DNA of 50,205 bases from Dehalococcoidia bacterium (GTDB lineage Bacteria; Chloroflexota; Dehalococcoidia; DSTF01; JALHUB01). Each line of letters starts with the position of its first letter. The first letter of the stretch is position 1. Positions 2,238 through 47,066 of this stretch are shown here, one piece after another. The stretch covers positions 1 to 50,205 of the forward strand of contig JASEFU010000010.1 in NCBI GenBank assembly GCA_030018455.1. The letters run 5' to 3'. The notes below the pieces were generated by a model. It was not told the DNA's origin and did not search any database. It saw only the letters and a list, made by a program, of their open reading frames with translations. The translations under genes were made by a program, and so were the position numbers.

Positions 2238-3146
2238 TCAGGGTTCGGGCGCCAGGGCCCGCTCTCTCTGCGGTACCCTGGCCGACCGGTTCCAGAGGGG
2301 GTGGAAGATGAACCACTGGTCGGGATCGTGGCGGATGAGCCGCTCGAGCGACCACATGATCTGCTGCGTAAGGCGGCGGACGTCCTCCTCCTCGTCGCCC
2401 GTCTTCTCAAACGCGAAGTCGAAGTCGACAACCGGCCGGATCTTGTCCTCCTCGCCTCGCACTCGCAGGAGGACCGCCGGCATGACGCGGGCGCCCGTCC
2501 GCAGGGCGATGCGGGCGGGCCCTACCGGCACCTCCATCGGCGAGCCGAAGAAGTCGACTTTCGCTGTGCCGCCGGGCTCCGGCGCGTCGATGAGCAGGGC
2601 GAGGATCTCTCCCCGCCGCAGGGCGCGGATGATGCCGGGCCCCACCTTCTCCATCGGCGTCACTTTCATCCCCAGGTGCCGGCGCGACCCCTGCACGAGA
2701 GCGTTCATCTGCGGATAACGGAACGTCTCCGCTACCACGTTCACCGGGTAGCCGTAGGCGGCGAGTCCGGCCGCGCCCATGTCCCAGTTGCCGAAGTGTA
2801 GGGTTATGAAGATAACGCCCCGGCCCGCAGCCATCGCCTCGTCGATGCGCTCGATATGATCGAAGACGATGCGGCGCCGCACCTCTTCCGGAGTCGAGTC
2901 GAAGAAGTGGATGAAGTCGATCACGTACTTGCCAAAATTCCGGAACGAGCGGCGGGCGGCGAGGCTTATCTCCTTCTCGTTGTCCGTGTTCAGCACCCGC
3001 GCCATGGCGTCCTTGAGGGCGCGCCGCTGCTCCCGAAAGAACAGGTAGCAAATGTCGGCAATGATCCGGGCGAAAAAGTAACCAACTTTGGGAGGGAAGG
3101 GACGTGCCAGGACGATTATGAGTCGGAAGATCCAGTAGACAATCAT
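2238..3146 (-). CDS. LpxL/PatA-family acyltransferase (first of pair)
   Basis: 302-residue member of the same acyltransferase family. The catalytic HX4D motif is in [11 protein letters not shown] (H117, D122). It is followed by a lysophospholipid-acyltransferase core with [10 protein letters not shown] and the acceptor-site-like [18 protein letters not shown]. The N-terminus is amphipathic or hydrophobic, with no cleavable signal. Its start overlaps the ino1 stop by 4 bp (ATGA), which shows translational coupling. In Actinobacteria, PatA acylates phosphatidylinositol mannosides and is encoded near inositol-lipid genes; this neighbourhood suggests a comparable role. It differs clearly from the next gene (HFGNWD against HLGNPE), so the two probably act on different positions or acceptors. 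Confidence 0.86.
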
Positions 3147-4219
3147 GCTTCGCTCTGCGCGATAAACTCCTCTACCATTTCACGGGCGCGGTCGTCGGTG
3201 AACTGCTGCGGCGGCGACTTCATGAAGTACGCGGAAGGGGCAATGAGGGCCCCGGACATGCCCCTGTCGAGCGCCAGCTTGCAGCACCGTATGGCGTCGA
3301 TCACCACACCGGCGGAATTGGGACTATCCCACACCTCGAGCTTGAGCTCCAGGTTCAGGGGCACGTCGCCGAAGGTCGTCCCTTCCATGCGAATGTGGCA
3401 CCACTTGCGGTCCTGAAGCCAGGGGATGTAGTCGCTGGGCCCCACGTGGATGTTCTCTTCCGGCAGCTCGTAGTCGAGCTGTGAGGTGACAGCGCCCGTC
3501 TTTGATATCTTCTTCGACTCCAGCCGCTCCCTCTCTAGCATGTTGAGAAAGTCGGTGTTGCCGCCGAAGTTGATCTGGTACATGCGGTCGATGCGGACGC
3601 CGCGGTCGCGGAAGAGGCGCGTCAGGACGCGGTGGACGATCGTCGCGCCCACCTGCGACTTGATGTCGTCGCCGATGACGGGCAGCCCGCGGTCGGTGAA
3701 CCGGCCCTGCCAGTACGGCTCTCGCGCGATGAAGACGGGAATGCAGTTGACAAAGCCGCAGCCGGCCGTGAGCACCTGCTCTACGTACCACTTCGTCGCT
3801 TCCTCTGAGCCGACGGGCAGATAGTTGATGACGACGTGCGTCTCCGTCCGGCGGAGTATGTCGACAATGTCGTCGGTCGGGCCCGGGGCCTTGCGGATGA
3901 TCTGCGACAGGTACTTGCCGAGGCCGTCGTGCGTCATGCCGCGGTGGACGCGCACCCCCAGCTTGGGGACGTCGGCGAAGCGGTAGGTGTTGTTGGGGGG
4001 GGTGTAGATAGCTTCAGCGAGGTCTTTGCCCACCTTGTTGGCGTCGATGTCGAAGGCGGCCACGAACTCGATGTCGCTTATGGCGTAGCCGCCGAGCTCG
4101 GCGTGCATGATCCCGGGGATCACCGCGCCGGCCTTCGCTCCGCGGTAATAGGTGACGCCCTGAACGAGGGAGGAGGCGCAATTCCCTACGCCGATGATGG
4201 CAACGTTAATCTTGCCCAA
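3143..4219 (-). CDS. ino1: Myo-inositol-1-phosphate synthase
   Basis: Converts glucose-6-phosphate to L-myo-inositol-1-phosphate with NAD, the committed step to inositol lipids and soluble inositol compounds. The protein is 358 residues, close to the short bacterial/archaeal form. The Rossmann motif is at the N-terminus ([16 protein letters not shown]). The conserved [32 protein letters not shown] and [20 protein letters not shown] blocks all follow. The start is taken as TTG at 4219: it has a strong AGGAG box about 8 nt upstream and puts the Rossmann strand at residue 3 or so, as in homologues. Longer in-frame starts lie inside the promoter. The gene is translationally coupled to an acyltransferase downstream. 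No phosphatidylinositol synthase or mannosyltransferase is in the window. Confidence 0.95.
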
Positions 4220-4220
4220 C

Positions 4221-4238
4221 CTTATCTCTCCTGATAAG
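4221..4238 (-). promoter_or_regulatory. Hairpin holding the ino1 ribosome-binding site in its loop
   Basis: On the minus strand, CTTATC and GATAAG form a perfect 6-bp inverted repeat whose 6-nt loop (AGGAGA) is the Shine-Dalgarno box of ino1. The TTG start follows directly. The pairing is seen in the sequence. Whether it presents or hides the ribosome site is inference. Confidence 0.5.
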
Positions 4239-4268
4239 CGTTCCAGTGGAGCGGGCAAAACCCGCTGC

Positions 4269-4298
4269 ATTCTAGCAGTTGGCCTGTCTGAGCGGCAA
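4269..4298 (-). promoter_or_regulatory. Sigma-70-type promoter for ino1
   Basis: Minus strand: -35 TTGCCG (4293-4298), an 18-bp spacer and -10 TAGAAT (4269-4274). Transcription would start near 4262, giving a leader of about 43 nt. The leader contains a second small inverted repeat (AGCGGG/CCCGCT, 4250-4266) and the RBS hairpin. Confidence 0.55.
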
Positions 4299-4465
4299 GC
4301 TCTAATTCTAATGTAGCGCAATGGCCGCCGTTCGGCCAGTCTGCCGTCGGGCGCGTCGAGAGGTTGGCTCCGCCCGAAAAAAGGGGACAGCGACCCAGAC
4401 GGTCGCCATCCCGGGGCGCTACAGAGGGACTACTGGCTTAGAGAAAGGAAGTCGTGCTGGCCGGC

Positions 4466-22115: not shown

Positions 22116-22580
22116 TTGAAGGCGGTCATCCAACGGGTAACCCGCGCTTCTGTTTCGGTCGACGGCGAGAGCCTCGGCCAGATCGGCGCCGGCCTGGTGG
22201 CGCTTGTCGGCGTCGCCCAAGACGACACCCCGGAAGACGCCCGCCGCCTGGCGGAGAAGACGGCCGAGCTTCGCATCTTCAGCGATCCCGAGGGCCGCTT
22301 CAACCTGTCGCTGCTCGATACAGGTGGGCAAGCGCTCGTCGTCAGCCAGTTCACCCTCCTCGCCGATTCCCGCAAAGGGCGGCGCCCCAGCTTCACGCGC
22401 GCCGCCGCGCCTGAGATCGCGCGGCCCCTCGTCGAGCGGTACGAGGCGGCGCTGCGCGAGAGGGGGATAACGGTTGTTAGTGGCCGCTTCGCCGCCCACA
22501 TGATGGTCGAGCTGGTGAACGACGGCCCCGTCACGATCATCCTCGACACCGCCGATCTCGAGAGGCCGCGCCGCGGCTAG
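22116..22580 (+). CDS. dtd: D-aminoacyl-tRNA deacylase
   Basis: Removes D-amino acids (and glycine from tRNA-Ala) from mischarged tRNAs. 154 residues. The chirality-selecting cross-subunit motifs are intact: [17 protein letters not shown] and the C-terminal [11 protein letters not shown] with Gly-cisPro. The TTG start gives the expected [18 protein letters not shown] beginning. Confidence 0.95.
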
Positions 22581-22606
22581 ACCCCTTCCGCGCACGTCTG
22601 TATACT
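22578..22606 (+). promoter_or_regulatory. Possible promoter for the L,D-transpeptidase gene
   Basis: Plus strand: TAGACC (22578-22583), a 17-bp spacer and TATACT (22601-22606), just after dtd. The -35 overlaps the dtd stop codon. Moderate match. Confidence 0.4.
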
Positions 22607-22622: not shown

Positions 22623-23366
22623 ATGCAAGGGGCTGTGACGACGATGCGGGGCAGAGTGTTGCGCGTTCTCCTTCTCGGGCTCTCCGTTCCAGCCGTTATC
22701 GCCGTCCTCGTCTTCTTCCTCGTGTCGTGGTCCGATGCGACAGACGAAGACGCTTCTCCGCAAGAACCGCAGGCAGCGGCGGCGCCCGACTGGGACGTGA
22801 CGGAAGCCCAGGCGGAGATCTTCCTCTACGAGGTGGTGGCGGCGAGAGAGGCGACGCGCCTCGCTCCCACGCCCACGCCCGAGCCGACTCCCACGCCCGT
22901 GCCGTCGCCGTTCGAGATCGCGCAGGCCGAGCTGCCGTACGCGGTCCCGCCTCCCAACGTGGCCTACGGGCCTGAGGAGCGCTGGATCGGGGTCAATGTC
23001 ACTACGCAACGGGCGTATGCCTTCGTGGGCGGCAAGGCAGTCTACGTGGCTCTGGTGACGACAGGCATGCCCGGCTACGAGACGCCGCTGGGCGAGTTCC
23101 GCATCAACTACCGCAAGGAGAAGGACATCATGGACTCGGAGACCATGGGTGTCCCTCACGACGACCCCGAGGGCTACTACCTGGAGGACGTGTACTTCGC
23201 GCAGTATTTCGCCCCCGGGTATGCGTTGCACTCCAACTACTGGCGCCCGATAAGCTACTTTGGTAACGTTGCCTCCAGCCACGGTTGCGTGGGCATGCTT
23301 TACGACGACGCCAGGTTCTTCTGGGACTTCGCGACCTACGGGACACGCATCGTGGTCTACCGGTAA
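22623..23366 (+). CDS. Membrane-anchored L,D-transpeptidase (YkuD)
   Basis: 247 residues. An N-terminal membrane anchor lies at about 12-35. A Thr/Pro linker (TPTPEPTPTPVPSP, about 82-97) crosses the wall space, and a YkuD catalytic domain (about 118-247) follows. The domain has YALHSNYW and the active-site SHGCVGM, with Cys222 as the nucleophile. Such enzymes make 3-3 peptidoglycan cross-links or attach proteins to the wall. The catalytic signature is not that of a sortase. The second ATG (22644) is an alternative start. Confidence 0.9.
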   Translation: MQGAVTTMRGRVLRVLLLGLSVPAVIAVLVFFLVSWSDATDEDASPQEPQAAAAPDWDVTEAQAEIFLYEVVAAREATRLAPTPTPEPTPTPVPSPFEIAQAELPYAVPPPNVAYGPEERWIGVNVTTQRAYAFVGGKAVYVALVTTGMPGYETPLGEFRINYRKEKDIMDSETMGVPHDDPEGYYLEDVYFAQYFAPGYALHSNYWRPISYFGNVASSHGCVGMLYDDARFFWDFATYGTRIVVYR

Positions 23367-23405
23367 GCGGTGGGGGCAAACAGCTTGCAAGTGGAGAGGG
23401 AGCAC

Positions 23406-24095
23406 GTGAACAAGGTCTACGCAACCGCCGTTGAAGCCATCGCCGACGTCGAGGACGGCGCCGTTATCATGTTCGGCGGCTTCGGTTCCGCCGGCAGCCC
23501 CACCAACCTCATCCTCGCCCTCGCCGAGAAAGGCGTCAAAGACCTCACAGCCATCTCCAACAACATCGGCCTCGGCGACAAGCTCGATGTCCTTGTGCAG
23601 AACAAGCAACTTAAGAAATTCATCGGCTCGTTCCCCATTCGCGCCACCACGAATCGCCGCGACTGGCTCTTCGAAGCGTTCAAAGCGGGCGAGGTCGAGG
23701 TCGAGGTCGTGCCGCAGGGGACGCTCGCCGAGCGCATGCGCGCTGCCGGGGCCGGCATCGGCGGGTTCTACACGCCGACGGGCGTGGGCACCGTCGTCGC
23801 CGAGGGCAAAGAGGAGCGCGTGATCGACGGCGTGCGCTACCTGCTCGAATACCCTCTGCGCGCCGATTTCGCCTTCATCAAGGCCTATAAGGCCGACACG
23901 CTGGGCAACCTGGTCTACCGCATGTCGACGCGCAACTTTAACCCCGTTATGGCGACAGCCGCCCGCGTCACTATCGTGGACACGGAGGAAATCGTCCAGC
24001 CCGGCGAGCTGGACCCTGAGGCGGTCGTAACGCCGGGCGTATTCGTCGACCGCATTGTGAAAGGCCCCAAGCATGACCTCCATGGGTTTGAGTAG
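23406..24095 (+). CDS. scoA: 3-oxoacid CoA-transferase subunit A
   Basis: Alpha subunit of a family I CoA-transferase that moves CoA between succinyl-CoA or another acyl-CoA and a 3-oxoacid. 229 residues from the GTG at 23406, which has GAGGGAG just upstream; a GTG 36 bp earlier is less likely. The VIMFGGFGSAGSPTNLI motif is the family CoA-loop signature. GGFYTPTGVGTVVAEGKEER and RADFAFIKAYKADTLGNLVY are typical. It overlaps scoB by 23 bp. The exact substrate (acetoacetate, 3-oxoadipate or another) cannot be told. Confidence 0.88.
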   Translation: MNKVYATAVEAIADVEDGAVIMFGGFGSAGSPTNLILALAEKGVKDLTAISNNIGLGDKLDVLVQNKQLKKFIGSFPIRATTNRRDWLFEAFKAGEVEVEVVPQGTLAERMRAAGAGIGGFYTPTGVGTVVAEGKEERVIDGVRYLLEYPLRADFAFIKAYKADTLGNLVYRMSTRNFNPVMATAARVTIVDTEEIVQPGELDPEAVVTPGVFVDRIVKGPKHDLHGFE

Positions 24096-24741
24096 GGAGC
24101 TCATCGCCCTGCGCGTCGCCCGCGAGCTGCGCGACGGCATGGTCGTTAACCTGGGCATCGGCATCCCCACGCTCGTCTCCGACTTCATTCCCCCCGGCGT
24201 TACCGTCATCTTCCAGGCCGAGAACGGCATCCTCGGCTACGGCCCGACGACCGCCGACGAGAGCGAGATCGACTGGGACCTCATAAACGCCGGCGGCCAG
24301 CCCGTCCTCCTGCTGCCCGGCGCCTGCTTCTTCCACAGCGCCGACTCCTTTGCCATGATCCGCGGCGGCCACATCGACCTCAGCGTGCTCGGGGGTCTCC
24401 AGGTCTCGGAGAAGGGCGACCTCGCGAACTGGATGGTTCCCGCGCGCGGCACCGGCAGCATCGGCGGGGCGATGGACCTGGCGGTTGGCGCGCGACGCCT
24501 CATCGTCGCCATGGAGCACACGACGAAGACGGGCGAACCGCGCATTGTGAAGGAGTGCACCTACCCCCTGACGGCGGTCAACGTCGTCGACCTCATCGTC
24601 ACCAACCTCGCCGCCATCGAAGTGCGGCCCGAGGGTCTCGTCGTCACCGAGCTGGCGCACGGCGTCTCGTTCGACCTCGTGCAGTCGCTGAGCGAGCCCT
24701 CGCTCATACCGTCACCGGACCTCCGCGAGATGGAGCTGTAG
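24073..24741 (+). CDS. scoB: 3-oxoacid CoA-transferase subunit B
   Basis: Beta subunit, 222 residues, carrying the catalytic glutamate in QAENGILGYG (Glu50). VVNLGIGIPTLVSDFIP at the N-terminus and GGHIDLSVLGGLQVSEKGDL are family hallmarks. The last part is DLVQSLSEPSLIPSPD. The overlap with scoA shows coupled translation. A heliorhodopsin gene starts 60 bp after its stop on the same strand, with its own strong RBS and no terminator between them. Confidence 0.88.
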   Translation: MTSMGLSRELIALRVARELRDGMVVNLGIGIPTLVSDFIPPGVTVIFQAENGILGYGPTTADESEIDWDLINAGGQPVLLLPGACFFHSADSFAMIRGGHIDLSVLGGLQVSEKGDLANWMVPARGTGSIGGAMDLAVGARRLIVAMEHTTKTGEPRIVKECTYPLTAVNVVDLIVTNLAAIEVRPEGLVVTELAHGVSFDLVQSLSEPSLIPSPDLREMEL

Positions 24742-24801
24742 CCGCGGTTGACCACCGTGGCAAGCCAGACGCAGCACTAGCCGTCGAAGGAGGGACTCTT
24801 C

Positions 24802-25584
24802 ATGACCGCTCTTCCCTACGAACCCCAGTACACCCGTCTCCGCTGGTTCAACGCGGGCATGGGCCTGCTCCATCTCCTGCAAGGGCTGGCGATACTCGCG
24901 CTCAGCACCGGTCTGACCCTGCCCCTGCGCACGACCTTTCTCGACGCGACGGGCCCGCCGGGGACAGGCGTCGATACGGTTACGCGCACCGTCTTCGACA
25001 TCCAGCTCGCGCCGATGATCGCCGCCTTTCTGTTCATCTCGTCGATCGCCCACTTCGTCACCGCGTCGCCGGCCGTCTTCCCGTGGTACGTCGAGAACTT
25101 GAAGCGGCGCATCAACTACATCCGCTGGTTCGAGTACTCGGCGAGCGCGTCGGTGATGATCGTCGTCATTGCCCTGCTCAGCGGCATCTTGGACCTGCCG
25201 ACCCTCGTCCTCCTGTTCTCCCTGAACGCAACGATGATCTTCTTCGGCCTGATGATGGAGAAGCACAACCAGACGACGGAAAAGACGGACTGGACGGCTT
25301 TCGTCCTAGGCTGCTTCGCGGGCATCGTGCCGTGGGTGATCATTGTGTGGGCGTTCACCGGCGCGGTGCTGACCTCGGACGAGGGCGACGTGCCGGCGTT
25401 CGTCTACGGCATCGTCGCCTCGCTCTTCGTCTTCTTCAACATCTTCGCCGTGAACATGGTGTTGCAGTACGCGAAGGCCGGGCCCTGGCGCGACTACCTG
25501 TTCGGGGAGAGGATGTACGTCCTGCTAAGTCTGACGGCAAAGTCCGCCCTCGCGTGGCAGGTCTTCGCCGGCACCCTGAATTAG
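24802..25584 (+). CDS. Heliorhodopsin
   Basis: Retinal-binding seven-helix protein of the heliorhodopsin family (inverted topology compared with type-1 rhodopsins). 260 residues. Helices lie at about 15-36, 65-88, 104-127, 132-152, 164-188, 197-222 and 237-257. The retinal Schiff-base lysine is K247 in LTAKSALAWQVFAG. The counterion glutamate is E111 in RWFEYSASASVMI. The cavity histidines match H24 (GLLHLLQG) and H84 (SSIAHFV). The S243 region and the WRDYLFGERMYVLLSL block are diagnostic. A long first extracellular loop (about 38-64) fits the beta-hairpin of the family. No proton-pump motif is present. The ATG has AAGGAGGG upstream. Known roles are debated: light sensing, photoprotection, or regulation of neighbouring enzymes. 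Confidence 0.95.
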   Translation: MTALPYEPQYTRLRWFNAGMGLLHLLQGLAILALSTGLTLPLRTTFLDATGPPGTGVDTVTRTVFDIQLAPMIAAFLFISSIAHFVTASPAVFPWYVENLKRRINYIRWFEYSASASVMIVVIALLSGILDLPTLVLLFSLNATMIFFGLMMEKHNQTTEKTDWTAFVLGCFAGIVPWVIIVWAFTGAVLTSDEGDVPAFVYGIVASLFVFFNIFAVNMVLQYAKAGPWRDYLFGERMYVLLSLTAKSALAWQVFAGTLN

Positions 25585-25805
25585 CCTCACCGGGCCCCAG
25601 GGCGGGCTCCGGGGTCGGAGCGCACGGTAGGGCCGGCGGCGATCGCAAAGCCGGCGTGACGGCAGGCGCGTCGCCGTTTTGTGCATGAGTCCTTTACATT
25701 TCTTCCCGCGTCGATCACGCGCGGTGCACGCACCCCTTCTATCATCTCGTCATCGGTCAGGCGCCGTCACGGGTTGACGGACATTACAGGAGGAGGCAAG
25801 GAATC
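25585..25805. other. Intergenic region between heliorhodopsin and GYD gene
   Basis: 221 bp with no gene seen. It begins with GC-rich inverted repeats (25590-25650) that may end the heliorhodopsin transcript, but no T-run follows. A TTGACG hexamer lies close to the next gene, without a clear -10. Confidence 0.35.
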
Positions 25806-26096
25806 GTGCCGACTTATCTGACGCTGTGGAAATGGACCGAGCAGGGGGCGAAGAACGTCGCTGGGGCCGTCGAGCGCGCTCAGGGCTTCAAGGCCGATAT
25901 CGAGCGCCGCGGGGGGAAGGTCATCGCCTTCATGTGGGCCCTGGGCGAGTATGACGGTTTCGTCCTGGCCGAGGCGCCGGACGACGAGACCGTCACGTCG
26001 GCGCTGCTCGGCGTCGCGCAAGCGGGGAACGCGAAGACGCACACGTTCCGGGCGTTCAACGAAGAGGAGATGAAGAAGATCATCGAGAAGATGTAA
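25806..26096 (+). CDS. GYD-domain protein
   Basis: 96-residue small protein of the GYD family (PF08734-type), a ferredoxin-like alpha/beta fold of unknown function. The signature is WALGEYDGFVLAEAPDDE at about residues 45-62, and TYLTLWKWTEQGAKNV opens the domain. The start is a GTG at 25806, with AGGAGGAGG and AAGGA upstream. It may belong to the heliorhodopsin unit or have its own promoter. It converges with the DinB-like gene. Confidence 0.85.
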   Translation: MPTYLTLWKWTEQGAKNVAGAVERAQGFKADIERRGGKVIAFMWALGEYDGFVLAEAPDDETVTSALLGVAQAGNAKTHTFRAFNEEEMKKIIEKM

Positions 26097-26850: not shown

Positions 26851-28428
26851 TCAGGAGCGGCGCTTGCGGCCCATGCGCCGCGCGATGTCGGCCGCGAAGT
26901 TCGCCGCCGTCCCCACGACGCCCTTCGTCTGCGGTATCGCCCGCATCGCCATCGATAGCTCCGGGTGCGCCCGCGCGTACGCCCGCACCTCGTCCAGCGT
27001 CACCCCATAGCTGTCGAGGACGCGTTGCATCTCCTCGCGCGCCTTTTCCTTCGCCTCCTGGAGCTTCATCTGGACGCGGCTCTTCACCAGCACCTCGCCG
27101 TCGCCCGTCGTCTCGATGGGCACGAACACCGTGTCGACGAGGTCGCTCACAACCTTCGCCTGCACGCCGTCGCTAACCGTGCTGGGCATGCACCCGAACG
27201 GCTTCACCGATATGAGCATGTGCGCCTTCGAGTGCTTGACCATGTATATGTGCTTCGTCACCTCGAGGTGGCCCTCGCCGGCGATGAGCCGCTTCTCGTA
27301 ATAGCCTTCCGAGTACTTGTCGAGCTTGCTCATGACGGGCAGCGGCTGCGGCTTGAAGTTCATCAGCGCGCGGTAGAACAGGTACACCGTCTCCGCCAGC
27401 AGCTTGCCGGCGCGCAGCCCCAGCCAGACGAGCCAGGGGTTGGCGGTGCCCATGCCCTTCTCGTCCGGCTTCACGAACAGGCGGTCGAGCACCTTCAGCT
27501 CGTTCAGCCAGATCATGTACTCGAACCACGCGCCGATCGTCTCCCGCGCCACCTCGGCGCCCTCGTCTTCCAGCCACTTCAACAGCAGGTGGTTCGACTC
27601 GCCTTCCGCGTGTTTGAGGAAGAATTCGCCCGTCACTTTCACACGCGGCTTCACCCGCAGGTAGTCCATCTCGACCTCGTTGAACAGCTTTCTGATGCCG
27701 ACCATCGTCTTGCGGGCGGAATGGCCCTCGCGGGCGGCGATCCGCAGGCGGCGCAACGCTTCTGCGGTCACGGCGTCCGTCTCGCCCGGCCTGACCTCGT
27801 ACGGCCGCACCTGCGAAGCGATATCGGCCACGAGATCGGCTGAGATCGCTACCCGGCCGCCGCGCCAGAACGTGATGGGCCGGATGCGCACCCCCGCCGA
27901 TTCCTGGTCGATGTCCAGCCCGTGGGCGATGTCGATCATGGCGATGCGGAAGTTGGGGAAGCCCGCCGCCTTCAGCGCCTTGCGCATGTCCGCCTCGTAC
28001 ATTCCCATGCGGCAGGGCCCGCAGTCGGACGCCCAGAACATGGCGTACTGCCGCTCGATCTCGCTGTCGGACATGCCCTGCTTCCGAAGGTCGAGCAGGA
28101 ACTTCAGCAGGCTGCCGATGGTGTAGTACGTGGGGTTGCACTGCCCGCGGTTGCAGTACTCCTTGCCGATGGACAGACATTCGTTGTCCGGCGTGGGAAG
28201 GATCTGCGCCTTGTAGCCCTCGCGTTCCAGCACGCCGAGCAGGACCTGCTGGAGGGTGTCGGGGAGGCCGCAGTAGACGACGGTCGTCTCGCCCTTTCGA
28301 ATCGGGACGGGCGGCTCCTCGGGCCGCTTGAAGTGACGGACGGGCGGCTCGGCGAGTCCCATCTCCTCCCTCAGCGAGCGGCGGTAGGCCTCGATCCGTG
28401 CCTCGATATCGGTTTCCGATAGCGCCAT
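26851..28428 (-). CDS. 2-hydroxyacyl-CoA dehydratase-like protein (activase partner)
   Basis: 525-residue protein of the HgdB-like (COG3581-type) family that pairs with the large tandem activase. The N-terminal half has many cysteines suited to an iron-sulfur cluster: C84 and C92/C97 (NECLSIGKEYCNRGQCNPTY) and C136/C139 (ASDCGPCRMGMYEA). FGCMPSTVSDGV lies near the end. The C-terminus is helical and basic. It follows the activase by 7 bp with a GGTAGGAGA box. The pair recurs in anaerobes and Chloroflexota. Its substrate is unknown, and no classical alpha/beta dehydratase subunits are here. Confidence 0.8.
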   Translation of the reverse strand: MALSETDIEARIEAYRRSLREEMGLAEPPVRHFKRPEEPPVPIRKGETTVVYCGLPDTLQQVLLGVLEREGYKAQILPTPDNECLSIGKEYCNRGQCNPTYYTIGSLLKFLLDLRKQGMSDSEIERQYAMFWASDCGPCRMGMYEADMRKALKAAGFPNFRIAMIDIAHGLDIDQESAGVRIRPITFWRGGRVAISADLVADIASQVRPYEVRPGETDAVTAEALRRLRIAAREGHSARKTMVGIRKLFNEVEMDYLRVKPRVKVTGEFFLKHAEGESNHLLLKWLEDEGAEVARETIGAWFEYMIWLNELKVLDRLFVKPDEKGMGTANPWLVWLGLRAGKLLAETVYLFYRALMNFKPQPLPVMSKLDKYSEGYYEKRLIAGEGHLEVTKHIYMVKHSKAHMLISVKPFGCMPSTVSDGVQAKVVSDLVDTVFVPIETTGDGEVLVKSRVQMKLQEAKEKAREEMQRVLDSYGVTLDEVRAYARAHPELSMAMRAIPQTKGVVGTAANFAADIARRMGRKRRS

Positions 28429-28435
28429 CGTTCTC

Positions 28436-31400
28436 CTACCTTGCTGCTGTCTGCACGCCGAGCAACTGTCGGCGGTACTCCTCGACCCGCCGCTCGACCT
28501 CTTCCGACAGCTCGCGGCGCCGCCGCATGTCCTCCTGCCGTCGCCTCAGGAAGTAGTCGATGGTCTCCACGCGCAGCTTTATCGACCCCACGGGCCGGTT
28601 CTCATCGAGGTCGTGGAAGGTGAAATAGGGGGTGTTCGCCGCCTCCAGTATCCCTTCGATGACGTTGTAGATGGGGGCATCGAGGCCGCACTTGAAGGAA
28701 GAAACGTCGATGCCGACGAGGTTGGGATGACGGGCGACGTACTTCGCCGCCCACACCTTGCGGCTGGTGTTTTCGCTGAACGTGTGCTTCCAGACGTCGT
28801 GGATGTCCGTCGCGTCGGGGATGTCTCCGCGCCGCAGCTCTTCGCCAAACAGCCGCTCGATAATGTCGTCGTCCACGGGCAGCGAGTCGATGCTGAAGAC
28901 GGGGTAGCCGAGCCGCTGGATCATCTCCGGTATGCCGTGGTGGATGCCGGGGTCGTTGTGGTACGGGCGCCCCAGCAGCACGACGCCGATCCGCTCCTCG
29001 CGCTCGAGCTGGTCGAGCGTCTCCCGCGCGCGCCGTCGCAGGCCCTCGCGGAACGCCTCCAGCGCGCGGTAGCCTTCGCGCAGGGCGGCGGCGTTCTCCT
29101 CTTCGCTCGCTCCCAGGAGGCCGCGGAAGAAGCTCAGCATCTGCTTTTGGAAAAGGTTGGGCTCGCCGAGGTGGAGCACGGGGTCGTAAAAGGCGACGCC
29201 TTTCTCCGCGAAGGCGTCTTTTTCCGTGGTGAACGCGGCCTTCACTACCTCCGGTATCCCCTGCACGGTGGGGCAGGCCCAATTCGACTGGCAGTCGTGG
29301 ATGTCGCTGGGAACGTTCATGATGATGGGGAAGAAGATGACGTCGACCTGCTTCTTGTACAGCAGGTTGTGGACGTGGGAGACGGCGATCTTCGCCGGGA
29401 AGCAGGGGTCGATCGAGCCGCGGCGCGAGCCCTCGCGGTACATTTGGTCGTCCGTGTAATCGGACCAGACGATGTGGCTGTGGGGGACGCCCAGGCTTTC
29501 GAGGTAGGCGGTGAAAAGTGGCGCGTGCGAGTACATGGTGAGGAGGCGCGGCATTCCGATCCGCATCGTCGCCCGCCGCGCCCGCGCTCCGCCGCCGTTC
29601 GAGCCGTCGCGCCCGAAGAGGAAGCGCCGCTTCTGCGCAAGCCGGCCGTTGGCGCGCTCCGGTGAGTAGCTGCGGAACGCCTCCCGCGCCGCGATCTCGA
29701 CGAAGTTCGGGTTCGCCTTCTTGACGGCGTTCTCGCGGATGTTGAACGCCCGCACGTCGTCGAGGCTCTCCTGCATCCCTCGCTCGCACGTCGCCGAGAT
29801 GAAGCGGGTCGTGTGCTCGGGGGACGTCTGGATGTCGACGAAGGTGCGCAGGCACTTGTTCTTGCAGAAGCTGCAGCGGGTCGATTCGTCGCGGGTAGCG
29901 GTGAAGGTGAGCGCCTCCACGCGCTCAAAGCCGATGAAGCTGCTCCCCCCGCCATCGCAGACGCGGATCGCCTCTGTGGCCGCGCCCAGCGCCCCGCTTT
30001 CGCCGGCGTGCGGGTGGACGTGTATCCGGGCGTCGGGTACGCGCGCGCGGATGAAGTCGTACTGCGCTTTCACCACCGCCAGGTTGTAGTGCGTGCCGCC
30101 CTGGAGCAGGAACGTCTTGCCGAAGCGGGCGAGGTTCGTCTCCTGCACCACGTACAGCCAGACGTTCTTGGGCAGGGTAAGCGCCAGGCCGGCCATGATC
30201 TCCGGCGGCGACCAGCCGAGCTGCTGGAAGTGGGAGATGTCCTGCTCAAGGAAGACGGCGCAGCCGTAATGGAAGTTGGGCGCGCGCTCCGCGCTCAGAG
30301 CGACGTCCGCCCAGCGGCTGATGTCGTAGCCGAAGCGCGCCGTCGTGCTCTGGAGGAAGTAGCCGTTGCCGGCCGAGCACTGGGTGTTGAGCTTGAAGTC
30401 CTTGACGGCGCCGCTCTTCATGATGATGACTTTGATGTCCTGCCCGCCCACGTCGGCGATGACGTCGACGTCCGGATAGTAGCGGAGGGCGGACTGCGCG
30501 TGCGCCACCGTCTCCGGAATGGCGATGTCGGCGCCCAGCGCTTCCTTCAGCAGGTCCTTCGCGTAGCCGGTCGTCGCCATGCCGAGGATGCGGACGGTCG
30601 CGCCCTGCTCCCGCACCTGACGCCACAGCTCGCCGAGCACGTCCTTCGCGTCCTGGAGGGGGTTGCCTTTGCAGAGCTGGTAGGCTTTCGCGAGCAGATT
30701 GCCTTCGCGGTCGACCAGCACCGCCTTTGTCGAGGTCGACCCGCCGTCCAGCCCGATGTACCCTTCGACCACCTGTCCGGGTGAGAAGACGGCGGGCGTG
30801 AACGGCCGGGGGGCGTAGAGCCGCCTGAACTCCTCGATGTCCTCGCCGGGGGCGAACGGGCCGCGCTGGCCCGTCTCCTCCTTCCCCCTGCGCCGTCCCT
30901 GCTCGATGTACTCTCTTAAGGCCTGCGTGCCGGCGTAAGCGGCGCCTGGGCCATCTTCCTGCTGTCCGTAGAGGGCGGCGCCCAAAGCGGCATAGTATAG
31001 CGAGTTCTCAGGGACGACGATAAGCTCCTCGGGGTCGCGATCGCCGACGGCGAGTCCCCGTTCGCGCCACAAGGGCGGGATATGACGGCGCCACGCCTCC
31101 TGCAGACAGGGGAAGAACGTGTTCGGGCCGCCGAGCAGCAATACGCGCGGCCGCAAAACGTTCCCCCGCGTGAGGACGCTGAGGTTCTGCTGCACGATCG
31201 CCTCGAAGAGGGAGACCATCAGCTCTTCCGATGACACGCCCTGCTTCTGGAGGCTGTTCATGTCGGTCTCGGCGAAGACGCCGCACTTGCCGGCAATCGA
31301 GTGCACCTTCGTGTTGCCGTAGCGCATGGTGCGGAGTTGCGCTGGGTCGAAGTGGAGCTTAGCCGCTATGCGGTCGATGACGGCCCCAGTGCCCCCAGCG

Positions 31401-31870
31401 CACTTATCGTTCATGTTGGCGAGCTTGTGCTTCCGGCCCGTCTTCGGGTCCTGGCGCCAGATGATGATCTTGGCGTCCTGGCCGCCTAGCTCGATAACGG
31501 AGCCGATGTCGGAGCAGAGGGCTTCCGCCGCCAGGGAGACGGCGTTCACTTCCTGCACGTAGCGAGCGCCGATGTAGGGGGCGAGGGCGCCGCCGCCGCT
31601 GCCGGTGACGAAGACCCGAAAACGCTCCGCCGGGGCCTGGAACCGCGCCTCTATCTCCTCGAGCAGCGCGAGAACTGTCTCCGGCTGGCGGGTGCCGTGC
31701 AGGCGGTAGTCGGCGTGGAGGATGTCCTTGCTGTCAGGGGCGACGATTACGTACTTGACGGCGGTGGAGCCGACGTCGAGCCCGATGATGAGGCCGCCGG
31801 CGGGCGGTTCCCTGACATCCCGCCCTGTGCCCGGCTCGGCCGGCGAGTCGGCGCCTGTCGGATCCTTCAC
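28436..31870 (-). CDS. Tandem BadF/HgdC-type activase with DUF2229-like domain
   Basis: About 1144 residues. Two acetate/actin-superfamily ATPase domains are joined head to tail: the first at about 27-305 (IIGLDVGSTAVKYV; cysteines C157 in NDKCAGGTG and C196), the second at about 370-640 (GYIGLDGGSTSTKAVLV; C498 in NTQCSAGNG and C537). Each has the cysteine pair that in HgdC binds a bridging 4Fe-4S cluster at a dimer interface. Next come a CxxCxxxC motif (about 666-673) and C695, then a COG3580/DUF2229-like region. Such activases inject low-potential electrons with ATP. The GTG at 31870 has AGAGG six bases upstream and is preferred over a TTG two codons earlier. Confidence 0.85.
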   Translation of the reverse strand: MKDPTGADSPAEPGTGRDVREPPAGGLIIGLDVGSTAVKYVIVAPDSKDILHADYRLHGTRQPETVLALLEEIEARFQAPAERFRVFVTGSGGGALAPYIGARYVQEVNAVSLAAEALCSDIGSVIELGGQDAKIIIWRQDPKTGRKHKLANMNDKCAGGTGAVIDRIAAKLHFDPAQLRTMRYGNTKVHSIAGKCGVFAETDMNSLQKQGVSSEELMVSLFEAIVQQNLSVLTRGNVLRPRVLLLGGPNTFFPCLQEAWRRHIPPLWRERGLAVGDRDPEELIVVPENSLYYAALGAALYGQQEDGPGAAYAGTQALREYIEQGRRRGKEETGQRGPFAPGEDIEEFRRLYAPRPFTPAVFSPGQVVEGYIGLDGGSTSTKAVLVDREGNLLAKAYQLCKGNPLQDAKDVLGELWRQVREQGATVRILGMATTGYAKDLLKEALGADIAIPETVAHAQSALRYYPDVDVIADVGGQDIKVIIMKSGAVKDFKLNTQCSAGNGYFLQSTTARFGYDISRWADVALSAERAPNFHYGCAVFLEQDISHFQQLGWSPPEIMAGLALTLPKNVWLYVVQETNLARFGKTFLLQGGTHYNLAVVKAQYDFIRARVPDARIHVHPHAGESGALGAATEAIRVCDGGGSSFIGFERVEALTFTATRDESTRCSFCKNKCLRTFVDIQTSPEHTTRFISATCERGMQESLDDVRAFNIRENAVKKANPNFVEIAAREAFRSYSPERANGRLAQKRRFLFGRDGSNGGGARARRATMRIGMPRLLTMYSHAPLFTAYLESLGVPHSHIVWSDYTDDQMYREGSRRGSIDPCFPAKIAVSHVHNLLYKKQVDVIFFPIIMNVPSDIHDCQSNWACPTVQGIPEVVKAAFTTEKDAFAEKGVAFYDPVLHLGEPNLFQKQMLSFFRGLLGASEEENAAALREGYRALEAFREGLRRRARETLDQLEREERIGVVLLGRPYHNDPGIHHGIPEMIQRLGYPVFSIDSLPVDDDIIERLFGEELRRGDIPDATDIHDVWKHTFSENTSRKVWAAKYVARHPNLVGIDVSSFKCGLDAPIYNVIEGILEAANTPYFTFHDLDENRPVGSIKLRVETIDYFLRRRQEDMRRRRELSEEVERRVEEYRRQLLGVQTAAR

Positions 31871-31992
31871 GTTCAACCTCTAGGTAGCAACCGCCGGGGC
31901 CCCGTTGTGGAAACCGCGTCCTGCAAGTCCGATCGCTCTGCCCCTCGCGACGGACCGACGTGCCAGGAGAGGCCTATCTCCCAGGGACTCCT

Positions 31993-33951: not shown

Positions 33952-36900
33952 GTGCAGGATGGAGAACACGCTCCTCAAAGCTCTCATTGTGCAGGACGTC
34001 GCAGGAAGTTGACTCTTAGACCAAGGACAATCGGCCGGCGCTACGCGCTCGCGGTGCTCGTCCTGGCGCTGCCGCTCTGTGCTCTCGCTGCGGTAGCGGC
34101 GTGGCACGGGCACGACGAGTCGTCGTCGCGTCGCGATTTGGAGAAGAGAAGCCTCGCGGCCGCTGCCCTCGACGATGCTCGCGCTCGCGTCTTCCTCAGC
34201 ACGCTCTACATCGGCGCCGCCGCCTTCTTCGAAGACCCCACGCCGTTTCTCGACAATTACGCTGCGGCGCGGTCGCGAGTACGAAGCGATCTGGCCGAAG
34301 CGCGCGCGATATTCGACTCTCTCGGCGCTACTGAAGAGCTCGCCGCCATGGACGATATCCTGGGGCAGACGGCTTCGCTCGAGAGCCGCAGCTCTTTCCT
34401 CTTCAGTTTTCCTTCGCTCCCTGTCACCGAGCGCGTTGATGTCCTGAGGCAGTCCTACGTCTCCTTGTGGCCGGATGTCCAGACCCTGACATCGTCCCTC
34501 AACACCTTCGTCGATCAGCAGCATGAGAAGCTGTCGCAGGAAAGACTGGCAGCCGACACGAACGCCAATCTCACGCTCGCGCTGCTGCTGACGTTCTGCT
34601 TTTTCGCTTTCGTTGCCGGATCGGCGGCGTTCGTCCTCATCCTCTTCTCCATAGTCCGTCCCATACAGGCCCTCAAGCGCGACCTCCAGGCGATCTCCGA
34701 CGGCGGCTCGTCTCGCCTTGTGACTGTCTCAGGCCCGGAAGAGGTGGCGTCTCTGGGACGGCATATCAACGAGATGGTGGAGCGCCGAAGAAAGGTGGAG
34801 GAGGCGCTCCATGAGAGCGACGAAAGGTATCGCACGCTCTTCGAACGCTCTCTCGATGCAGTATACGTGCACGACTTCGAAGGACACTTCCTCGATGCCA
34901 ACGACGCGGCTCTTCGCCTGCTCGGGTACTCGCGCGAGGAGATAATAGGACTGTCCTTCGCCGATCTCCTCGACGATTCCCAGCTCGATGTCGCCATGGC
35001 CACGACCCGCGAGCTCGCCACCACAGGCCGGCAGGCGAGACCGGTCACCTACCGTCTTAAGCGCAAGGACGGGACGTATATCGAGATGGAAACGGCGGCG
35101 GCCGTCGTGCACAACGATGGGCAGCCGGCGGCCATCCAGGGCGTGGCCCGCGACATCACCGCGCGCAAAGAAGCGGAGGACGCGCTGCGCGAGAGCGAGG
35201 CCAAGTACCGTCACATCTTCGAGACCGTGCAGGACATCTTCTACCGCACCGATGCCAGAGGCATTATCACGGAGATAAGCCCTTCCGTCGAACGCTGGGG
35301 ATACAAGCGCGAAGACCTCATAGGCACGCAGGTGCTTGACGTCTACGAGAACCCTCGGCAGAGGGCGGCCCTTCTCAAGGCGCTATTCGAGAAGGGCGAG
35401 GTGACGGACTTCGAGGTCCGCCTTGTTGCCGCCAACGGGGAGGTGAGGGATGCCTCCGTGGGCTCGCACCTCATTTATGCCGCCGACGGCAGTGTTGCCG
35501 GCGTGGAGGGCTTCCTGCGTGACATCCAGGAGCGCAAGCAGATGGAGCGGGCGCTGCGGGAGCAGATGCGCCGCGACGCTCTCACCGGCGTGCTCAACCA
35601 CGCGGCCATCGTCGAGGAACTGCGCAAGCTCGTCGGCGGCGGCGAGAAGGCGTCCTGCGCCGTGGCCATGACCGATGTCGACGGGTTGAAGGCGATAAAC
35701 GATACCTTCGGTCACAGCGTCGGCGATAAGGTGCTTAGTACAGTGGCGCGCGCGCTTTCGAGGGACGGGGCGCTCGTCGGGCGGTACGGCGGCGACGAAT
35801 TTATCTCCATCCTGCCCGGCGCCGATCGCGACGCGGCGGAGAACTACCGGAGGGAGGTCCTTAAGAGACTGGGAAGGACAAGGATGCGCGACCCCAAGAG
35901 CGGGACGCCTGTTCGCGTGGTGGTGAGCGTGGGTGTCGCCATCTCACCCATCGAAGCGAACCGGATAGAAGACCTGATAAACCTCGCCGACGGCGGCATG
36001 TATGAGACGAAGAGACAGCGTCTCGTCGGCGTGTCGGCGCCGGACGCCCTTGACGAACTGGCGTCGAGGATTGTGGGCCAGATCGTCCCGCTGCTGACCT
36101 CTCCCGGCGAGCTGGGAGAAAAGCTGCGGCTGGTGGGCCGGAGACTATCGATCGCCCGCGAGTACGACGCCGTCAGCTTCGTTCTCTTTCCCGAGGGTGA
36201 AGACGCGATCGTCAACACCTTTGCCCGCCTCCCGAAGAAGCTCGCCGATGAGTGGAACGAGGAGCAGCGCAGAAAAGGAAGGGCCCTGCTTGCGACGCGC
36301 GACGTGCTGGAACAGGGGCGGGCAGTCATCCTCGACAACCTGCCGGAAGACGGGCGCCTCACCGAGAAGGAGCGCCGCTTGATGCGACTGGCCGGTCTCA
36401 AGGCGGCGCTTGCCGTGCCCATGGTATGGCGCAAGGAACTCATCGGCATTCTGTGCGTGGCGAGCAAGCGAGAGGCCGCTTTTGGCCCCCGCGACGCCCG
36501 CTTCCTGACGGCCGTTGCCGCCCAAGTGACGGCGCTCGTCAGCATGGCCACGCTTGTCGAGCAGTTGCGCTCCGCGTCGCAGCAACTCTCCCGCGCGCAC
36601 GCCGAAACCGTGCTGCTGCTTGCCGCCGCCGCCGAAGCCCACGACCGGACGACGGGAGAACACCTCCAGAACGTCTGCCGGATATCGGAGAAGATTGCCA
36701 TCGAGCTGGGGTGGGAAAGGGACAAGGCGGCAGAGCTCGGGCTGGCCGCCGTGCTCCACGACATCGGTAAGATACGGGTCGCCGATTCCGTGCTCGCGAA
36801 CAACGGCAAGCTGACGGATGAGGAATGGGAGCTGATGAAGCGCCACGCAGTATGGGGCGAGGAGTTCCTGGCCGGGCGTTCCGGCTTCGAGCTCGCGGCG

Positions 36901-37191
36901 ACGATCGCCCGCTCTCACCACGAACGCTGGGATGGACAGGGCTACCCCGACGGCCTGCGGGGAGAACAAATACCGCTGGCGGCTGCAATCGTGGCCGTCG
37001 CCGATGGCTTCGACGCCATGATCAGCGATCGGCCCTACCGTCCGCGTCGCTCAATCTCCGCCGCCATCCAGGAGATCGCCGCCTGTTCGGGAAAGCAGTT
37101 CAGCCCAGAAGCCGCCGAGGCTATGATGAGGCTGTACCGGCGGAAAGCCCTCTACGGGCTGCCGCGTCGCCAGAACCAGGAAGCAGCTTAG
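33952..37191 (+). CDS. PAS-PAS-GGDEF-GAF-HD-GYP cyclic-di-GMP protein
   Basis: 1079-residue membrane sensor able in principle both to make and to break cyclic-di-GMP. Order: TM1 (about 28-48), extracytoplasmic domain (about 50-205), TM2 (about 207-233), HAMP (about 235-285), two PAS domains (about 285-405 and 410-535), GGDEF (about 540-690; G613-F617 intact), a GAF-like domain (about 710-870) and HD-GYP (about 885-1065; HDIGK at 936 and HHERWDGQGYPDGL). The usual RxxD inhibitory site before GGDEF is absent (RDGA there). The start is doubtful: the GTG at 33952 has its RBS too close, and a TTG near 34011 is possible. Confidence 0.88.
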   Translation: MQDGEHAPQSSHCAGRRRKLTLRPRTIGRRYALAVLVLALPLCALAAVAAWHGHDESSSRRDLEKRSLAAAALDDARARVFLSTLYIGAAAFFEDPTPFLDNYAAARSRVRSDLAEARAIFDSLGATEELAAMDDILGQTASLESRSSFLFSFPSLPVTERVDVLRQSYVSLWPDVQTLTSSLNTFVDQQHEKLSQERLAADTNANLTLALLLTFCFFAFVAGSAAFVLILFSIVRPIQALKRDLQAISDGGSSRLVTVSGPEEVASLGRHINEMVERRRKVEEALHESDERYRTLFERSLDAVYVHDFEGHFLDANDAALRLLGYSREEIIGLSFADLLDDSQLDVAMATTRELATTGRQARPVTYRLKRKDGTYIEMETAAAVVHNDGQPAAIQGVARDITARKEAEDALRESEAKYRHIFETVQDIFYRTDARGIITEISPSVERWGYKREDLIGTQVLDVYENPRQRAALLKALFEKGEVTDFEVRLVAANGEVRDASVGSHLIYAADGSVAGVEGFLRDIQERKQMERALREQMRRDALTGVLNHAAIVEELRKLVGGGEKASCAVAMTDVDGLKAINDTFGHSVGDKVLSTVARALSRDGALVGRYGGDEFISILPGADRDAAENYRREVLKRLGRTRMRDPKSGTPVRVVVSVGVAISPIEANRIEDLINLADGGMYETKRQRLVGVSAPDALDELASRIVGQIVPLLTSPGELGEKLRLVGRRLSIAREYDAVSFVLFPEGEDAIVNTFARLPKKLADEWNEEQRRKGRALLATRDVLEQGRAVILDNLPEDGRLTEKERRLMRLAGLKAALAVPMVWRKELIGILCVASKREAAFGPRDARFLTAVAAQVTALVSMATLVEQLRSASQQLSRAHAETVLLLAAAAEAHDRTTGEHLQNVCRISEKIAIELGWERDKAAELGLAAVLHDIGKIRVADSVLANNGKLTDEEWELMKRHAVWGEEFLAGRSGFELAATIARSHHERWDGQGYPDGLRGEQIPLAAAIVAVADGFDAMISDRPYRPRRSISAAIQEIAACSGKQFSPEAAEAMMRLYRRKALYGLPRRQNQEAA

Positions 37192-45086: not shown

Positions 45087-45115
45087 TCATGTCGCCTGCC
45101 GGCCTGGAGGAGCGC

Positions 45116-45799
45116 ATGTACATCCTTGTCGTCGAAGACGAACGCCGCCTGGCGCGGGCGATCTACCGGCTTCTCGAAGAGGAGGGGCACACGGTCGATC
45201 TCGCGCACGACGGCGAAGAGGGGCTGGCCCTCGCCCTCGACGGCTCGCACGACGTGATCGTTCTCGACGTGCTGATGCCGCAGATGAACGGCCTGGAGGT
45301 CTGCCGCGCCATACGGAACAACCGCATCGACACGCCGATCCTGCTCCTGACCGCGCTCGACAGCGTCGAAGACAAGGTGAGGGGGCTTGACGCCGGCGCC
45401 GACGACTACCTTCCGAAGCCGTTCGCGTTTCAGGAGCTGCTGGCCCGGCTGCGCGCCCTCGGCCGGCGCAAGGTGCGCGATCACGAGCCGTCGCTCCTCC
45501 AGGTTGGCGACCTGACGCTCGACCTGAGAAGGCGCCGGGCGCAACGGGCCGGGCGCAACATAGAGCTGAGCCCGAAGGAGTTTGCCCTCCTCGAATACCT
45601 CATGCGCAACGAGGGCCGGGTGCTGACCCGCTCCCAGATCCTCGACCACCTCTGGGGGTACGACTACACGGTGGAGTCCAACCTGGTCGACGTGTACATC
45701 TCCTACCTTCGCCAGAAGCTCGACCACGGCCGGCCGGACAAGCTGATCCGGACGGTGCGGGGAATCGGCTACGCTCTGGAGGCAGACCGTGTTCACTAG
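45116..45799 (+). CDS. OmpR-family response regulator
   Basis: 227 residues. The receiver domain has the acidic VVEDE pocket, phospho-acceptor Asp51 (VLDVLMPQ), the LTA switch threonine and the KPF lysine. The C-terminal winged-helix domain (about 130-222) has SPKEFALLEYLMRNEGRVLT and RTVRGIGYAL. The ATG at 45116 (MYILVVEDE) has GGAGG upstream; a longer start lies inside the promoter. It overlaps the sensor kinase gene by 11 bp. Confidence 0.94.
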   Translation: MYILVVEDERRLARAIYRLLEEEGHTVDLAHDGEEGLALALDGSHDVIVLDVLMPQMNGLEVCRAIRNNRIDTPILLLTALDSVEDKVRGLDAGADDYLPKPFAFQELLARLRALGRRKVRDHEPSLLQVGDLTLDLRRRRAQRAGRNIELSPKEFALLEYLMRNEGRVLTRSQILDHLWGYDYTVESNLVDVYISYLRQKLDHGRPDKLIRTVRGIGYALEADRVH

Positions 45800-47066
45800 G
45801 GCGCGCTGGAAGCTGACGCTCGCCTTCGCCGGGGCGCTGGCCGTCATCCTGGCGCTCACGGGCACCGCCGTCTATCTGAGTGTCCGCGCCACGCTGTACA
45901 ACCGCGTGAACGACGATCTGAAGGCGCGGCTCGAGCGGGAGGTCCCGCCGCTAGCGGCGCGTCTCGTCAACGCTTCGCGGATGGGTCAGCCCTTTCACCA
46001 GATACCCATCGGCCCCTCTTCGGCGGCGGCAGGCTACTTCTATGCCCTGGTCGGAGAGGACAGGGCTGTCGTCGTCAGCTCCACTTCCGTTCAGCCGCAA
46101 GACCTGGCGGGCGCAGAAGCCGAGCAGCGCGCGCTGACGCAGGGTTCGACCTTCGTGGATGTCGAGTCGTCGGAAGGAGACACCCTGCGCATCTACGTCA
46201 GAGCCGTGCGCGGCCCCGGCGGACAGAACCTCTTCCTCGAAGTCGGGCGGAGCATCGAGCCGGAGCAGACGCTTTTGCGCGGCCTGCTCTTCGTTCTCGT
46301 CGCCGGCGGGGGCGCGGGCCTTGTGCTGGCGTTGATTGGAGGGTTCTTCATCGCCGGCCGCGCCCTGCGCCCGATTCAGGCGGCCATGGACCGTCAGAAC
46401 ACCTTCGTCGCAGATGCCTCTCACGAGCTGCGCACGCCCCTCGCCCTCATCCGCGCCAGCGCCGAACTGCTTCAGCGCCACCGGGACGATACCGTGCAGG
46501 CGAACATGGAATCGGTCGACGACATAATCTGCGAGACCGACCGGCTGAGCAATCTCGTCGGCCGGATGTTGAGCCTGGCGCGCGCCGATGCCGGCCAGGC
46601 GCCGCTGGAGTTGACGGACGTGGACATGCGGGAGCTAACGGAGGACGTCGTTCGGCAGGCGCGGAAGCTGTGCGGGCCGGAGCGAATACCGCTCGACGTG
46701 CCGGCGGACGGGCCGTTGACGGTGAGGGGCGACGCGTCGCGGCTGCGCGAGCTTCTGTTTATCCTGCTCGATAACGCGATCAAGTACGGCGACGCGCGGG
46801 AGCCGGTCGGCGTCACCCTCCACCAAAGCGACGGCAAGCTACTGCTTCGCGTCTCCGATAAGGGGCAGGGCATCCCCGAGCACGCCCTGCCGCGGGTCTT
46901 CGACCGCTTCTACCGCGTCGACAAGGCGCGCTCCCGCGAGAAAGGCGGCGCCGGGCTGGGCCTCGCCATCGCCAGGTGGATCGTCGAGGCGCATGGGGGG
47001 ACGATACGAATCGACAGCGTCGAGGGAGAGGGCACCTCCGTCACCGTCGAGCTGCCGGCGGCTTAG
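45789..47066 (+). CDS. Sensor histidine kinase
   Basis: 425 residues from a GTG. Two membrane helices (about 8-28 and 164-186) enclose an extracytoplasmic sensor domain of about 135 residues. The HisKA helix pair has phospho-acceptor H212 in DASHELRTPLALIRAS. The ATPase domain has the N-box LLFILLDNAIKYGD, the G1 box VSDKGQGIPEH and the G2 box GGAGLGLAIARWIV. It is the partner of the preceding regulator. The HAMP domain is short or absent. Confidence 0.93.
   Translation: MFTRARWKLTLAFAGALAVILALTGTAVYLSVRATLYNRVNDDLKARLEREVPPLAARLVNASRMGQPFHQIPIGPSSAAAGYFYALVGEDRAVVVSSTSVQPQDLAGAEAEQRALTQGSTFVDVESSEGDTLRIYVRAVRGPGGQNLFLEVGRSIEPEQTLLRGLLFVLVAGGGAGLVLALIGGFFIAGRALRPIQAAMDRQNTFVADASHELRTPLALIRASAELLQRHRDDTVQANMESVDDIICETDRLSNLVGRMLSLARADAGQAPLELTDVDMRELTEDVVRQARKLCGPERIPLDVPADGPLTVRGDASRLRELLFILLDNAIKYGDAREPVGVTLHQSDGKLLLRVSDKGQGIPEHALPRVFDRFYRVDKARSREKGGAGLGLAIARWIVEAHGGTIRIDSVEGEGTSVTVELPAA

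Follow-up and report, generated by a model that had tools for sequence, protein, structure and literature searches.

A complete heliorhodopsin gene in a Dehalococcoidia genome without recognised retinal-synthesis genes, in a gene neighbourhood specific to that genome

What heliorhodopsins do is still largely an open question, to which the genes around them have so far offered the main clue. The 50,205-nucleotide stretch of a Dehalococcoidia genome analysed here (the window) holds such a gene behind those of a CoA-transferase and an L,D-transpeptidase, and the question is whether this setting reveals what the protein does and where its retinal would come from. The window comprises bases 1-50205 of an 80,218-base contig in a 2.38-Mb genome that is 97.7% complete. 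A stray contig is excluded because G+C is uniform along the window (about 65%) and the same contig carries rpsB, tsf, pyrH, frr, nusA, infB, rbfA and truB (the first four read from translations).

The heliorhodopsin gene (24802..25584, plus strand) begins with ATG, encodes 260 amino acids and is preceded by a Shine-Dalgarno-like sequence, AAGGAGGG (24787..24794, plus strand), read directly in the sequence. A sequence-only reading had claimed a complete heliorhodopsin gene here and had named a profile search as a possible refutation; that search places the protein inside the family, with full-length matches to Pfam PF18761 (327 bits, cut-off 26.7, profile positions 1-242 of 242) and to the NCBIfam equivalog NF038020, 'heliorhodopsin HeR' (338 bits, cut-off 100). 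The closest solved structures by sequence are the heliorhodopsins 6is6, 7clj, 9ljj, 6su3 and 6uh3. A structure model predicted from an alignment with 24 relatives (pLDDT 92) has seven long helices, with strands at residues 39-48 and 58-68 in a long extracellular loop 1, and in a fold search it matches 6is6 with Z 33 and an rmsd of 2.1 Å over 248 residues; the top fold matches are all heliorhodopsins (Z 33 to 28), with no type-1 rhodopsin above Z 22.7. The gene is a genuine, ordinary, full-length and new heliorhodopsin of the known family.

Residue mapping bears out the further claim that K247, E111, H24, H84 and S243 are intact: H24, H84, E111, S243 and K247 align with H23, H80, E107, S237 and K241 of 48C12, so that the SxxxK motif of helix 7 (S243-x3-K247) and the helix-3 glutamate counter-ion (E111) are both present. 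The hydrogen-bond network of 48C12 (N16, H23, Q26, S76, H80, Y92, R104, E107, S111, E149, E230, S237, K241 and W246; PMC9726877) is complete in the window protein, with 14 of 14 residues (N17, H24, Q27, S80, H84, Y96, R108, E111, S115, E153, E236, S243, K247 and W252). In an alignment of 68 heliorhodopsins (the window protein, two solved proteins and 65 other loci), 29 columns, among them those of E111, S243 and K247, show no variation apart from gaps, a pattern that points to strong constraint on the lysine as on the rest. By analogy with the solved proteins, the window protein would bind retinal. At the positions that separate long-wave from short-wave heliorhodopsins (PMC7807009), it has M152, M219 and A246, matching the class that absorbs below 540 nm, to which it may be assigned on these residues. 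K100, R101, R102 and R108, together with K225, R230 and R237, lie in or beside loops that, by a reading of the sequence, would face the cytoplasm were the N terminus internal, as it is in 48C12.

The pocket is not uniform within the class. Eight heliorhodopsins (L069, L073, L079, L087, L088, L090, L091 and L094) have leucine at both positions corresponding to H24 and H84, as well as A74F and S248A, and keep E111, S243 and K247; they form one Dehalococcoidia clade with full support. Two of the genomes that carry this double-leucine form (G150 and G127) belong to family f47, and one of them (G127) additionally has a normal copy.

Heliorhodopsin is present in both genomes of the window's family (G000 and G001), in 40 of 197 genomes of the class and in 39 of 301 genomes of the phylum sample, as determined by whole-genome family searches, which were used in place of a single-protein genome scan that recovered only five relatives. 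Phylogenetic analysis of 65 heliorhodopsins groups the window protein with those of G154 and G185, from another family of the same class (support 98), with that of an order-mate, G169, next to this group (support 88). The sequences from G154 and G185 are its nearest full-length relatives (about 70% identical, or at most 68% when measured in the tree alignment, with a DegV gene beside both), and the heliorhodopsin fragment of the sister genus (G001) is 75% identical over 57 residues. Tree and taxonomy do not agree cleanly: archaeal, Asgard and Trueperaceae sequences, several of them on long branches, stand among those of the Chloroflexota, so transfers across lineages appear likely from the sequences. 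A viral origin of the window gene was considered and dropped, no relative having been found in viral contigs by the search used.

The neighbours named by the earlier reading are confirmed by profile matches. Upstream, on the same strand, are genes for a YkuD L,D-transpeptidase (22623..23366, plus strand; PF03734, 77 bits) and for subunits A (23370..24095, plus strand; TIGR02429, 287 bits) and B (24073..24741, plus strand; TIGR02428, 294 bits) of a 3-oxoacid CoA-transferase; a GYD-domain protein gene (25806..26096, plus strand; PF08734, 88 bits) lies 221 bp downstream. From the L,D-transpeptidase to the heliorhodopsin the spacing is 3 bp, a 23-bp overlap of the subunit genes, and 60 bp; this closeness makes a single four-gene transcript beginning with the L,D-transpeptidase possible, and does not support a functional tie between the genes. 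A single, weak sigma-70-like site lies at 22578-22606 (mean of 0.5 expected in shuffles), and no terminator-like site was found between the subunit B and heliorhodopsin genes. Two weak terminator-like hairpins between the heliorhodopsin and GYD genes (25652-25674) are no excess over chance (mean of 1.5 expected); the GYD gene is probably a separate unit.

Elsewhere in the window, 26851-31876 encodes a 1146-residue two-module BcrAD/DUF2229 acyl-CoA dehydratase activase and a partner of 525 residues without a match in Pfam or NCBIfam. A HAMP-PAS-GGDEF-GAF-HD signalling protein is encoded 8.4 kb downstream of the heliorhodopsin (33952-37191), and a response regulator and histidine kinase pair at 45089-47066. 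At 2238-4321, a lipid A acyltransferase-family gene adjoins one for myo-inositol-1-phosphate synthase, which suggests what we take to be acylation of an inositol lipid, not an outer membrane.

The neighbours had also been put forward as the best clue to the function of the protein, an expectation that fails on comparison with 65 other heliorhodopsin loci, covered mostly up to 7 kb per side where the contig allowed, by ORF clustering and by tblastn searches using the neighbour genes from the window. Among these loci, nothing matches the window's L,D-transpeptidase, GYD or DinB genes, and the CoA-transferase has a single hit, weak and partial (34%, E 6e-4). The sister genus has a CoA-transferase pair 83% and 85% identical to that of the window; it lies between thiolase-like and xylanase-like genes (names read from translations) on a contig without heliorhodopsin, and the neighbours of that genome's heliorhodopsin fragment differ from those in the window. 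Because it is absent from the 65 loci and broken in the sister genus, the arrangement is specific to the window genome, and the CoA-transferase/L,D-transpeptidase/GYD neighbourhood was rejected as a functional clue; a neighbourhood seen once can mislead. The only neighbour common to another locus is the downstream BcrAD-type activase with its partner, a pair that also follows the heliorhodopsin L074 (genome G153) at a distance of about 0.6 kb; one occurrence in 65 is not evidence of a link.

Other genes do recur beside heliorhodopsins in this sample, namely DUF2177, DegV, DUF1295, photolyase and MerR-B12 genes, none of which adjoins the window gene. DegV and DUF2177 are among the neighbours previously reported (PMC9385722, PMC11109279). 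PMC11109279 distinguishes ten heliorhodopsin groups, each with a dedicated operon partner, and none of the window's neighbours matches the ten partner genes listed there. Genes of the DegV family, which bind fatty acids, lie 13-175 bp from the heliorhodopsin, or once overlap it, at six loci (L064, L081, L088, L091, L075 and L080), of which the last two hold the closest relatives of the window protein; DegV is a possible carrier of lipid or retinal.

The absence of retinal-synthesis genes from the window, noted earlier, extends to the whole genome. Three families were sought there without a match: phytoene synthase, by a search that detects it in 7 of 14 control genomes; the RPE65 family, by a search that detects two controls; and Blh/Brp, by a search in which two Blh-annotated Pantoea plasmids, added as positive controls, both scored 70-75 bits and the window genome gave no match. 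The retinal would therefore have to come from outside or be made by another route. Of the two sources that the sequence-only reading had allowed, the outside stands, and another part of the genome is unlikely, as the searches of a genome 97.7% complete revealed no gene for carotenoids or retinal; the organism appears unable to make retinal, unless the missing 2% holds such a gene or a different pathway exists. Photolyase was not found in the genome, which leaves exposure of the organism to light without support. Cytochrome bd is present, and for heme-copper oxidase the search gave only one match, below threshold (18.8 bits). The two genomes of the family to which the window belongs have cytochrome bd and lack heme-copper oxidase, which is present in 11 of 11 other sampled genomes of the order.

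Rhodopsin-bearing Chloroflexi have been stated, with data not shown, to be capable of lacking blh and diox1 (PMC7734400); the absence of phytoene synthase here goes beyond that. Among 55 heliorhodopsin-bearing genomes of the phylum, 53 lack both cleavage families and 43 lack phytoene synthase as well; COX1 and cytochrome bd are both missing from 25, and 22 are without any of these genes. Because the set's 25 genomes that lack heliorhodopsin had been chosen by hand, no association is claimed. The point worth keeping is that heliorhodopsin is common in genomes without a known retinal route, its lysine invariant nonetheless. Three single-contig genomes of 1.36-1.52 Mb (G014, G050 and G099), probably Dehalococcoides, carry heliorhodopsins (L058, L061 and L065) with the full residue set and DUF2177 directly upstream; phytoene synthase, a known retinal cleavage enzyme, COX1, cytochrome bd and photolyase were not found in them. 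Should these size-based identifications hold, the carriers include cultivated Dehalococcoides and Dehalogenimonas, and the source of retinal could be tested in culture.

The explanation that we favour, and consider reasonably probable, is that the window protein is a green-light sensor, not a pump, that uses scavenged retinal and acts on a partner perhaps encoded elsewhere. Retinal on K247 would absorb green light and isomerise; the Schiff-base proton would pass to E111 and on to the region of H84 and H24; and the resulting change of shape would reach both faces of the membrane and a partner at the basic cytoplasmic loops, which are proposed as an interaction surface in PMC11109279. The light-sensing role is assigned by analogy: some other heliorhodopsins are reported to regulate partner proteins, mostly the products of adjacent genes (PMC9529153, PMC9769723, PMC11109279). 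The partner of the window protein need not have its gene nearby. As the organism is without known retinal-making genes, its chromophore would probably be scavenged from other microbes or from organic matter.

That the heliorhodopsin is instead co-transcribed with the upstream CoA-transferase, L,D-transpeptidase or both, and places them under light control, seems very unlikely. Heliorhodopsins of other species bind their operon neighbours (PMC9529153, PMC11109279), and the close spacing on one strand, with no terminator-like site found between the subunit B gene and the heliorhodopsin gene, would suit such an arrangement; however, the 60-bp gap exceeds the under-10-bp criterion of PMC8612252, these genes accompany 0 of the 65 other heliorhodopsins, the sister-genus pair is flanked by thiolase-like and xylanase-like genes, and no paper in the literature collection searched names both heliorhodopsin and CoA-transferase. 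A light-driven ion transporter resembling the viral V2HeR3 is the hardest reading to credit: one viral heliorhodopsin transports protons (PMC9448325), whereas the window protein has the residue set of the cellular type represented by 48C12 and TaHeR, for which no pumping is reported (PMC7807009, PMC8612252).

The remaining alternatives concern the chromophore. It is unlikely, though deserving of some weight, that in this lineage the protein functions with no retinal at all, either as an apo-protein or bound to some other ligand; the want of retinal genes, photolyase and heme-copper oxidase in the genome and the DegV genes that adjoin heliorhodopsin in parts of the class would fit, but the Schiff-base lysine, the counter-ion and S243 do not vary in the alignment, which is what one would expect if binding of an aldehyde is still important, and the related solved proteins bind retinal. 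Known retinal-forming cleavage consumes O2, and at least 22 heliorhodopsin-bearing genomes lack both COX1 and cytochrome bd, which argues against synthesis in the cell by a route without a recognisable phytoene synthase or known cleavage enzyme; invariance of the lysine across many genomes without known retinal genes speaks for such a route, which we regard as improbable without dismissing it. Its precedent, Aurantimicrobium minutum, has neither blh nor diox1 and yet produces retinal, but it retains carotenoid genes (PMC7734400), whereas in the window genome not even phytoene synthase was found. A speculative and rather doubtful reading may also be offered, in which heliorhodopsin, in this lineage and in many related, partly oxygen-free ones, retains the lysine pocket despite the lack of means to make retinal because it senses scavenged retinal-like aldehydes, or is a regulator in its apo form, and is not a permanently loaded light receptor.

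This putative green-light sensor, probably supplied with retinal from outside, can be set against systems already described. Within the same class, the heliorhodopsins of Chloroflexota, including SAR202 Ca. Lucifugimonas marina, belong to the same family; SAR202 isolate JH545 has two of them, each one gene downstream of a photolyase (PMC10444878), and a single-contig genome of the class (G190) likewise has two, each downstream of a photolyase, whereas the window genome is without photolyase and its gene has a different neighbourhood. A monoderm host is a stated trait of heliorhodopsins (PMC8612252). In comparison with 48C12 (PDB 6su3, 6uh3), the window protein is 42-43% identical and has all 14 network residues, but M152 and M219 replace Q148 and Q213, which predicts a pigment of shorter wavelength. 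TaHeR of the Thermoplasmatales archaeon SG8-52-1 (PDB 6is6), although archaeal and different in the sequence and length of extracellular loop 1, is 48-49% identical over about 248 residues, has the same fold, and shares with the window protein the retinal and proton-network residues and the M/M/A colour-tuning set.
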